Assembly (NCBI RefSeq): GCF_027923585.1
Contig: NZ_BRPL01000002.1
Coordinates: 1,054,001 to 1,118,000, forward strand
Reading direction: 5' to 3'
DNA from: Philodulcilactobacillus myokonensis
Lineage (GTDB): Bacteria > Bacillota > Bacilli > Lactobacillales > Lactobacillaceae
DNA: 64,000 bases
Under the pieces are notes generated by a model. The model made no database searches and was not told where the DNA came from. It saw only the letters and a program-made list of their open reading frames with translations. Made by a program: the position numbers and the translations under genes. This document shows, one piece after another, positions 10,752 through 58,971 of this stretch; within the stretch, counting starts at the first letter, position 1; each line of letters opens with the position of its first letter.

Positions 10752-11117
10752 GGGGTCGTTAAGGATTCGACTGGTATAGTTCGAGCCTGAATTGCGTTCC
10801 GTAGCAACGCTACGTAAAAAACGATTCAGTTTTTAACTGCAAATAATAATAATTCTTACGCTGTAGCTGCTTAAATAAAGTTAGCTCTGCGTGATCCGCT
10901 CAGCTTGGCCTAGAAGCTGGATACGGGTTTTATATATTATAGGATACGCTAGTCACTCCGACCTGAAGTAACTAGAAGAGATCAATCAGGATAGTCAGCC
11001 AATGAAAACCTTGAGATGCGGTGTTTTTGGTTGGCGAATTTCTAAATAGTATCGCTATGAGCGTAGAGACTCGGGTGGCGATATGCTAGGACGCGGGTTC
11101 GACTCCCGCCGACTCCA
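10752..11117 (+). ncRNA. ssrA: tmRNA (ssrA)
   Basis: The 5' end GGGGTCG pairs with CGACTCC at the 3' end, closing the tRNA-like domain with T arm GGGTTCGACTCCC. The tag reading frame runs from GCA 10839 to TAA 10872-10874 and encodes ANNNNSYAVAA. The tRNA-Ala-like ends, the Asn-rich tag and the pseudoknot-rich middle identify transfer-messenger RNA, which rescues stalled ribosomes with SmpB (gene at 35474-35950). The final CCA is not encoded; A11117 is the discriminator. The tag ends in AVAA where ALAA is usual. Confidence 0.96.
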
Positions 11118-11126
11118 TAAATAAAA

Positions 11127-11159
11127 GCAACTGGTGATTTAATTACCAGTTGCTTTTTT
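11127..11159 (+). terminator. Terminator of ssrA
   Basis: GCAACTGGT and ACCAGTTGC pair perfectly around a 9-base loop, followed by six T. It overlaps the stop codon of the leftward SDR pseudogene and may serve both strands. Confidence 0.85.
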
Positions 11160-12032
11160 AATTTAAAAATGGTTCGACAACTTTCATACAATAGTTCCAT
11201 AATTTTAATTCATTTTCTTCAGAATAGTGCCGCTTGGGTGAATCAATCATTTTTCTTTTATTATTAAAATATTTTCCAGAAACACCCTTAATTTGATTGG
11301 AAGTTGCCAAGTAAAAATTAGTTGAAGCCCCTTGTTCTGGCGAAGACATCAAATGTGATTTTAAGGCAACCTTATAAATTAAATTGTTCCAAAAACCATT
11401 ATCACTATTTTGGCCAAAATTAGTGGCAACCGCTCCCGGATGAGAAACATTTACAGTAACATTATGAACGTTTTGATTTTTTAATAGTTTAGCTAAATGT
11501 TGAGTATTCCAAATCACAAATAATTTACTGATTCCATAACGTTTTTGACCAGACGGTTCGTTCTTAAAATTCAAATCATTCATATCAGGATTTACCATGT
11601 TAGCAGTTGAAGATGCCATATTAATAACCCTGCCGTCCGTACTTTTCTTAAGGTTAGGCAATAATAACTGGGTTAAGAAGAACGGTGCAACCACGTTCCC
11701 ACGTTCAATTGCATCGTCAATTCGATTCCATCACTAGTTTCCTTCCTTTGGTCATTCAATACTGCACCGGCGTTATTAATTAAAACGTCCAAGTGATCAT
11801 ATCTAGAATTGAATTCAGTTACCATTTGTTTAATTGATGGTAACGATAGTAAATCAGCAATTAAATAATGGATGTTCTGATTATGACTTTTATCTTTAAT
11901 TTGTTCTACAATGTGTTCTGCTTTGTTTTCATTTCGACCGTGAATAATAACATTATACCCGTTTTGAGCTAATTCCAATGCGGCTGTTTTGCCAATCCCA
12001 CTAGTTGCTCCTGTAATTAAAATTGTTTTCAT
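11158..12032 (-). pseudogene. Short-chain dehydrogenase broken by an 8-bp tandem duplication
   Basis: Two frames together give one complete SDR. The first part (12032 to about 11700) has the cofactor motif TGATSGIG near residue 7 and NNAG near residue 88, and ends at ...ELTMQLNV. The second part (to 11158) resumes with VAPFFLTQLLLP and carries the YGISK catalytic motif (Tyr and Lys) and the HPGAVATNF segment. The break is a perfect duplication of GAACGTGG on the coding strand (11691-11698 and 11699-11706); removing one copy restores ...LNVVAPFFLTQ in one frame. The intact protein would be an NADP-dependent oxidoreductase like WW-domain oxidoreductase/retinol dehydrogenase homologues. It lies downstream of a tetR gene with matching operators. 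Confidence 0.9.
11691..11706. repeat. Perfect 8-bp tandem duplication causing the SDR frameshift
   Basis: CCACGTTC occurs twice in a row on the plus strand (11691-11698, 11699-11706). The 8-base gain shifts the frame and is the kind of event produced by replication slippage. Confidence 0.95.
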
Positions 12033-14673: not shown

Positions 14674-14699
14674 ACATATGAAATAAATTAAACTAAAAA

Positions 14700-14937
14700 T
14701 ACTATTTAAGCGGATCAGTATTAAGCAATTATTTTCAAAGCGAGCTAATGTTAGTGAGAGTTTAGCAACCCTGTTGTTTAAGAATAACACCGTTAATAAT
14801 TTCATTTTGAACTAAAAGTAGGAATGGACGCTTAACATTCGTTACATGTTAGAGTGGCTTTATAAAATTATAAAGCATTTTAGGTGGTACCGCGGAAAGA
14901 TCTTTCGTCCTTGATTGGATGAAGGATCTTTTTTTAT
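14700..14937 (+). promoter_or_regulatory. T-box riboswitch for asnS, with terminator
   Basis: The leader has the conserved T-box sequence AGGTGGTACCGCG at 14882-14894, followed by a terminator hairpin (AAGATCTTTCGTCC with GGATGAAGGATCTT and a T run ending at 14937). In the stem I region, GAACTA at 14809-14814 places AAC, an Asn codon, at the expected specifier position. Uncharged tRNA-Asn would pair with both sites and stabilise the antiterminator. This agrees with the downstream gene. Confidence 0.92.
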
Positions 14938-57137: not shown

Positions 57138-57950
57138 TTAATAATACCATGGTAGTTTAGTGTAATGGTATCTTCGATAAACAATTGCTAAAATTGAAGC
57201 AATAAATAAAATGACGGATAAAAACTGTGAAACTCTAATATCACCAAACATCATTAAACTGTCGGTTCGCATTCCTTCGGTAAAAAAGCGGCCAAAAGAA
57301 TACCACATTACATATGTAAAGAATACTTCCCCTTCTTTATAGAAATGAGGCAAATGCCTCAAAGACATTAACAAAATAAATCCTAATAGATCCCACATTG
57401 ATTCATATAAAAAGGTCGGTTGACGGTACACACCCATAATATTCATTTGATTAATAATAAATGTTGGCAAATGAAGGTGCTGTAAAAAAGCAAGGCTGGT
57501 TGCCTGACCAAATGCTTCTTGGTTCATAAAATTACCCCATCTACCAATTGCTTGACCCATAATTACAGTTGGCGAAATCACATCTAACATCAGCCAAAAC
57601 GAAATTAAATGGTAACGACAAAACAAATAAACCACAATTCCGGCCCCAATTAATGAACCGTAAATTGCAATTCCACCGTCCCAAATTTGAACAATTTGAT
57701 CAAGATTATTGCGATAATAGCCCCATTGAAAAATAACATAATATGCTCTGGCAGAAATAATTGCCACCGGAAGAGCATATAAAACCATGTTATAAATATC
57801 ATCGGATTTAATTCCGTGTAAAGCACCTTCTTTAACGGATAAATAAATTGCAATCATCACGGCACTCGCGATAAAAATTCCATACCAATGAACTTTAATG
57901 GATCCTAAGTTAAAAGCAATTGGATTTAACGCTAATTCTTTAAAAATAAT
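57138..57950 (-). CDS. lgt: Prolipoprotein diacylglyceryl transferase, start codon not canonical
   Basis: Transfers diacylglycerol from phosphatidylglycerol to the lipobox Cys of prolipoproteins. A membrane protein with the signature GRWGNFMNQEAFG, plus FLYESMWDLLGF and the late GRFFTEGMRTDSLM. The first ordinary in-frame start (57860) would lose the conserved N-terminus, but the frame is open upstream and encodes LALNPIAFNLGSIKVHWYG, exactly the family start. No ATG, GTG or TTG is in that extension; ATT 57950 or ATT 57947 lies 8-11 bases after AAGGG. Alternatively ATG 57958, overlapping the hprK stop, joins the frame if one T is added to the T5 run near 57942-57946. Confidence 0.9.
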   Translation of the reverse strand: MIFKELALNPIAFNLGSIKVHWYGIFIASAVMIAIYLSVKEGALHGIKSDDIYNMVLYALPVAIISARAYYVIFQWGYYRNNLDQIVQIWDGGIAIYGSLIGAGIVVYLFCRYHLISFWLMLDVISPTVIMGQAIGRWGNFMNQEAFGQATSLAFLQHLHLPTFIINQMNIMGVYRQPTFLYESMWDLLGFILLMSLRHLPHFYKEGEVFFTYVMWYSFGRFFTEGMRTDSLMMFGDIRVSQFLSVILFIASILAIVYRRYHYTKLPWYY

Positions 57951-57954
57951 AGAT

Positions 57955-58971
57955 TCATCCCTTCAAATGTGGATTTTTTTGAATTGCTTTTTTATTATTT
58001 CTTAAAATTTGTTTCTGCTTACTTGTATTATAACTGGCATCTTTTGAATTAGCTTGGATTAATTTCTGTAAATTATTATTAAATGTTGCTGTGACATCAT
58101 AACCCATTTTTCTAGTTCGATAGTTCATTGCAGCTGATTCAATTAAAACCGCTAAATTACGGCCAGTTTTGACTGGGATTGTATTTTGATCAACCTTAAC
58201 ATCGAATATTTTTTTATAAACATTGCCATTTCCTAAACGATCATAAGGAGCATCTTTAGACCAGTTTACAAGATGAATAATTAAATCAACTTTTGTCTTA
58301 CCCCTAACGGCACCGGCACCAAATAAATTCATAACATCAATGATGCCAATCCCTCTAATTTCAAGTAAATTTCTTAAAATTTGGGGAGCTTGGCCAATTA
58401 GTGTATGTTCATCCTGTTGATAAACTTCAACCCGATCGTCAGCAATTAACCGGTGCCCACGCTTAATCAATTCAAGTGCAGTTTCACTCTTTCCAATTCC
58501 AGAATCACCGGTAATTAAGACCCCCAATCCATAAATATCAACTAAGACACCATGGATTGATTTCCGTTCTGCTAATTTTCCTTCCAAGTAATTAGTCATA
58601 TTACTCAAAATTCTAGAAGTCGTTAATTCTGATCCTAATACTGGAATCTTTTCAGTTTTTACCGCCCGAATTAATTCCTTAGGTGGCCTCAATTTAGTTG
58701 AAATAACAAACGCCGGCGTTTCAGGTTGGCACATATGCTCCATCACATGAAAAAGTTGCCCATTAGCCATGCCCTTAGCATACGATGTTTCGGTAATACC
58801 CAATAATTGAATTCGGTTAGCTGGATAATAATTAAAATAGCCGGTAAGTTCTAACCCAGGTCTCGAAATATCACTTGTCGTAATCAAACGATCAAGATAT
58901 TCTTTTCCATAATAAACATTTAAGTTAGTATTCTTAACTAATTCAGCCACACTTACACTATGATTTGTCAA
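57955..58971 (-). CDS. hprK: HPr kinase/phosphorylase
   Basis: Phosphorylates HPr on Ser46 and removes the phosphate, the core sensor of carbon catabolite control in Firmicutes. A 338-residue protein with H140 in KSIHGVLV, Walker A GDSGIGKSE at 155-163, LIADDRVEV and the signature LEIRGIGIIDVMNLFGAGAV (about 207-226). The C-terminus after residue 310 is a longer basic tail than usual (KQKQILRNNKKAIQKNPHLKG). Its stop overlaps or abuts lgt. Confidence 0.97.
   Translation of the reverse strand: MTNHSVSVAELVKNTNLNVYYGKEYLDRLITTSDISRPGLELTGYFNYYPANRIQLLGITETSYAKGMANGQLFHVMEHMCQPETPAFVISTKLRPPKELIRAVKTEKIPVLGSELTTSRILSNMTNYLEGKLAERKSIHGVLVDIYGLGVLITGDSGIGKSETALELIKRGHRLIADDRVEVYQQDEHTLIGQAPQILRNLLEIRGIGIIDVMNLFGAGAVRGKTKVDLIIHLVNWSKDAPYDRLGNGNVYKKIFDVKVDQNTIPVKTGRNLAVLIESAAMNYRTRKMGYDVTATFNNNLQKLIQANSKDASYNTSKQKQILRNNKKAIQKNPHLKG

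Follow-up and report, generated by a model that had tools for sequence, protein, structure and literature searches.

Where does translation of lgt begin in Philodulcilactobacillus myokonensis, when none of the usual start codons precedes the conserved N-terminus of its product? The window, that is the whole stretch of 64,000 nucleotides that was analysed, carries this gene downstream of hprK on the same strand:

57138 to 57950, minus strand: lgt (prolipoprotein diacylglyceryl transferase), read from ATT 57950; 270 amino acids and a stop codon
57955 to 58971, minus strand: hprK, the gene upstream of lgt, whose stop overlaps the Shine-Dalgarno (SD) region

Reading frame and conserved N-terminus of lgt

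The lgt frame ends at the stop codon 57140-57138 (minus strand) and is closed upstream by an in-frame TGA at 57965-57963 (minus strand). The codons that follow this TGA are AGG GAT GAA TCT ATT ATT TTT AAA GAA TTA GCG TTA, the two ATT lying at 57950 and 57947, and the frame then continues with AAT CCA ATT GCT TTT into the conserved stretch LALNPIAF...HWYG. Neither ATG, GTG, TTG nor CTG occurs in frame between the TGA at 57965-57963 and LNPIAF, and the first ordinary in-frame start is GTG 57860, from which a product of 240 amino acids would be made.

Read from ATT 57950, the predicted protein matched PF01790 over positions 1-240 of the 240 in the profile with 254 bits (cut-off 24.9) and TIGR00544 with 241.5 bits (cut-off 118.9), and it was matched by Lgt of E. 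coli (5azb, E=8e-17). The gene is present as a single copy in the genome. Equivalents of the E. coli residues Y26, R143, N146, G154 and R239 are all kept, with HWYG, GRWGNFMNQEAFG and GRFFTEGMR aligned, and a tyrosine stands at the position of H103, a residue described as poorly conserved (PMC13251419). The tyrosine of HWYG corresponds to Y26 of the E. coli enzyme, which touches the phosphatidylglycerol and whose replacement gives an inactive enzyme (PMC4728403, PMC13251419). With GTG 57860 as the start, the PF01790 match begins at profile position 23 and positions 1-22 are lost, HWYG among them. Because HWYG and its essential tyrosine would be dropped, lgt must begin upstream of GTG 57860; this codon, which also lacks an SD, was rejected as the start. 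The initial annotation had noted that no ATG, GTG or TTG is available for the conserved N-terminus and had placed the beginning of the gene in the extension above the first ordinary start. Codon reading of the minus strand bears out the former, and the presence of profile positions 1-22 in that extension agrees with the latter.

Initiation signals ahead of lgt

Four further features of the hprK-lgt junction bear on the start:

57958 to 57964, minus strand: SD-like sequence GAAGGGA, within the 3' end of hprK; its pairing with the 16S tail, the best ahead of lgt, gives -6.4 kcal/mol
57948 to 57950, minus strand: candidate AUU start 1, spacing 5 (6 in the next register)
57945 to 57947, minus strand: candidate AUU start 2, spacing 8 (9 in the next register)
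57956 to 57958, minus strand: out-of-frame ATG (MNLLFLKN and a stop), overlapping the hprK stop; not favoured as a start

For SD scoring, every position was paired with the 16S tail and spacing was counted from where the AAGGAGG register ends, with 51 ORFs of the window itself as controls. Spacing in these ORFs peaked at 7-8 within a range of 2-12, and lgt was the only one of the 51 to lack an ordinary start supported by an SD. TTG was scored at 12 of the 50 SD-supported starts, and weak starts are therefore common in the window; hprK itself apparently starts at TTG (58969-58971, minus strand; AGGAGGGCAACTTTTTGACAAATC).

The end of hprK reads CAT TTG AAG GGA TGA, with its stop at 57957-57955 (minus strand) and 4 nt before ATT 57950, and an ORF of at least 315 codons stops just ahead of lgt in every relative checked. 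GAAGGGA is also found in both genomes of genus g33 (L088/L096). The computed spacings of 5 and 8 confirm that the two ATT codons are well placed from AAGGG, as had been proposed, and either of them may serve as the start. ATT 57947 has the modal spacing, which it shares with an AUH codon (AUU, AUC or AUA) in genus g33 and in Apilactobacillus L085. Folding revealed no RNA structure that would occlude the lgt start (z 0.89). The out-of-frame ATG 57958 precedes the SD reference point by 2-3 nt, beyond the control range, and normal use of the SD is therefore impossible for it.

We consider it very probable that lgt is intact and functional and that its translation starts at AUU, at 57950 or 57947, by way of GAAGGGA. 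The SD at the end of hprK would recruit the ribosome to one of these codons, and ribosomes that finish hprK just upstream would probably aid initiation, coupling lgt to its neighbour. Base pairing of AUU with initiator tRNA is imperfect, and codons of this kind are disfavoured by IF3. Because of both effects, Lgt synthesis may be held well below the level expected from AUG and may depend on IF3.

Start regions of lgt in related genomes

The best relatives of the window all belong to the Lactobacillaceae. The start region of lgt was read in 197 loci, a few of which are duplicate copies of one gene, with the genus of the window represented by one genome, and the loci whose SD has no ordinary start nearby were listed from this set. 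In the two genomes of genus g33 the region reads GAAGGGAATGA ATT ATA ATC AAA TTA GCA and GAAGGGAATGA ATT CAA ATT AAA TTA GCA; here a TTG that encodes the L of LNP was rejected as a start, since 23 nt separate it from the SD. Five Apilactobacillus genomes have AUH at the lgt start: the A. micheneri group (L005, L086, L114, L115) reads GGAGGAGATCTT ATT TCG, its only TTG lying before the SD, and L085 reads GGAGGAATTT ATT ATT, or at greater length ATGGAGGAATTT ATT ATT TTA, with an ATG before the SD.

AUH is kept in nearly all Levilactobacillus surveyed: L. namurensis (L024) reads AAAGGGGGTAGACA ATC ACG, and in most of the others the SD runs directly into an ATG, with ATC or ATT following at spacing 8. 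The arrangement AGGGAG-ATG-GGC is found in L014, L018, L019, L023, L025, L028, L031, L040, L108 and L110, and further in L141, L146, L149, L152 and L156. Spacing alone excluded the SD-abutting ATG of most Levilactobacillus and the TTG before the SD in the micheneri group, and Levilactobacillus Lgt N-termini annotated from this ATG (MGVIF or MGDIF) are probably wrong. Alignment of L155 (CAATGACGGTAACACC) with L. namurensis L024 (CAATCACGTTAACACC) puts ATG and ATC in the same place; the L155 genome was assigned to genus group g16, together with other loci of the same arrangement. Liquorilactobacillus mali (L027/L032), L157 and L179, which the SD filter had also singled out, were not accepted as AUH starts, an ordinary ATG or TTG being nearby and the SD weak or misplaced.

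From these readings, lgt appears to start at AUU, AUC or AUA in three or more other genera as well. The initial annotation had taken ATT in relatives as support for a rare start and a normal in-frame ATG in relatives as evidence against it. Codons of the ATT, ATC or ATA type do recur at an SD-spaced position in g33, Apilactobacillus and Levilactobacillus, in sequences and contexts that are independent of one another, which supports the rare ATT start of lgt. An ordinary ATG is nevertheless present in some close relatives (the A. kunkeei group, L006/L117 and L099), and the AUH start is absent from most other genera; the trait is not universal.

Isoleucine codons make up 10-14% of lgt (about 12%), and the chance of finding AUH among two in-frame codons at spacing 4-9 is p ~0.2 per lineage. 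Over four lineages (the window, g33, Apilactobacillus and Levilactobacillus), which are only reasonably separate, the combined chance is ~0.003, and it is only as this combination that the recurrence appears convincing; a product over seven rows, 3e-5, overstates independence. The in-place replacement of ATG by ATC between L155 and L024 is, as aligned, evidence separate from this estimate. The AUH label required 5 changes on the Lgt tree as against 16.2 in shuffles and is thus clustered, with at least four of the five changes forced by well-supported branches. Such a distribution could result from at least two gains, or from gains of greater age combined with losses.

It is conceivable, although we would rather doubt than assert it, that lgt has been selected for an AUU, AUC or AUA start in several genera of Lactobacillaceae and in at least two lineages (Levilactobacillus and the Apilactobacillus-like clade). 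If so, the selected codon would limit the supply of the enzyme that opens lipoprotein maturation and would tie Lgt output to the level of IF3, to growth rate and to the translation of hprK.

Alternative explanations

The T5 run at 57946-57942 and the ATG 57958 that overlaps the hprK stop are both as the initial annotation described them, and two other readings had been attached to them, a control by slippage and a sequencing error. The former depends on one further feature:

57938 to 57944, minus strand: heptamer U_UUA_AAG; by no other site could ribosomes plausibly pass from ATG 57958 to the lgt frame (-1)

In a programmed -1 frameshift, translation would start at ATG 57958, read AUG AAU CUA UUA UUU UUA AAG and, after slipping back by one base on U_UUA_AAG, continue in the lgt frame; the product would be MNLLFLKELALNPIAF. 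The heptamer has the form X_XXY_YYZ, occupies exactly the place between the ATG and the out-of-frame stop TAG and shifts in the required direction; AAGGG stands 14 nt upstream, the predicted N-terminus looks natural, and ribosome FRET experiments have relied on the same heptamer for the shift (PMC5009743). A heptamer of this type would nevertheless be met in seven codons by chance in about 5% of cases, folding gave no significant structure downstream (z 0.15), and the spacing of ATG 57958, outside the range of the controls, leaves it with no usable SD. The relatives weaken this reading further: every AUH relative examined lacks the heptamer, the frame relation of the out-of-frame ATG to lgt is not kept, and the nearby ATG in g33 would require a shift of +1 rather than -1. 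We regard a programmed frameshift as improbable.

A sequencing or assembly error, with the T5 run short of one T and the true start at ATG 57958, is less probable still. A single-base difference would indeed join this ATG to lgt, and the assembly is a draft of 1.67 Mb in 4 contigs. However, T5 is a short run, the sole broken gene found in the window gaps that were checked results from an 8-bp tandem duplication and not from a homopolymer, and the restored ATG would remain badly spaced from the SD. An error is unlikely because the independent assemblies of relatives, several of them and with different local sequence, keep AUH at the lgt start and likewise lack an ordinary one.

Recent loss of the start, leaving a pseudogene in the making or a short form made from GTG 57860, would account for the lack of an ordinary start ahead of the conserved N-terminus, yet it is the least credible reading, given a frame open over 270 amino acids with a full-length PF01790 match, the retained equivalents of R143, N146, G154 and R239 in a single-copy gene, the same arrangement in relatives and, for the short form, a GTG without SD whose product would be missing the essential tyrosine.

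Other features of the window

A short-chain dehydrogenase-like gene at 11158-12032 (minus strand) is divided into two frames by the 8-bp tandem duplication GAACGTGG, whose copies lie at 11706-11699 and 11698-11691 (minus strand); it is either a pseudogene or a contingency locus. The window also contains a T-box leader (RF00230, 105 bits) at 14696-14915 (plus strand), a tmRNA at 10752-11120 and three tRNAs.

Comparison with known non-AUG starts

Few bacterial genes are known to have AUU, AUC or AUA as their start codon, and such a start is a known but unusual means of keeping a protein scarce. The type of start is thus familiar, and it is lgt as its bearer, together with the recurrence across genera, that looks new. 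A non-AUG or ATT start of lgt was not found reported in the literature searched, which covered few subscription journals, and this silence is weak evidence of novelty. Gene finders confined to ATG, GTG and TTG wrongly shorten or extend genes with AUH starts, and their annotation of lgt would either omit an essential residue or carry a false N-terminus; databases list Borrelia bbe22, too, in a truncated form without the N-terminus it needs (PMC13398362). The recurrent AUH in lgt, with its natural ATC/ATG pair, offers a comparative set on selection for weak starts.

Frameshifting of the dnaX type shares with the lgt junction a slippery heptamer and an upstream SD-like sequence, but at lgt the heptamer is not conserved, downstream structure is missing and the spacing of the ATG does not suit initiation. 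Initiation at AUU, the reading that we prefer, has closer parallels. Like lgt, infC of E. coli and of Bacilli is an otherwise normal gene in which an AUH codon (AUU or AUA) stands behind an SD; AUU is the start codon of infC and pcnB in E. coli (PMC9410913), and Ribo-Ret places the start of S. aureus infC at AUA (PMC13009471). In the genome studied here, the conserved start of infC (L200, about 1238-1262) reads GGAGGTGA ATC GCT ATA GCA AGA without ATG, GTG or TTG, and four relatives (L201, L202, L204, L205) have ATA GCA behind a strong SD, so that AUA is the likely start. The difference is that infC autoregulates because it codes for the start-discriminating factor itself, whereas lgt would be a target only.

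In S. aureus, ccpN (AUA) and cvfC1 (AUU) resemble lgt as Bacilli genes with a conserved non-canonical start and reduced initiation, which for lgt is predicted (PMC13009471). The AUU and AUA starts of cvfC1, ccpN and citZ gave ~10% of the output of an AUG reporter in poor medium, and that of ccpN up to 30% in rich medium (PMC13009471). These S. aureus starts have extended SD sequences and Ribo-Ret evidence, whereas lgt follows hprK within an operon, its SD is moderate and its start is predicted from sequence. Finally, E. coli pcnB and Borrelia pncA/bbe22 have an AUU start, as is proposed for lgt (PMC13398362), but they are other genes and belong to other phyla, whereas the AUH start of lgt recurs in several genera of one family.
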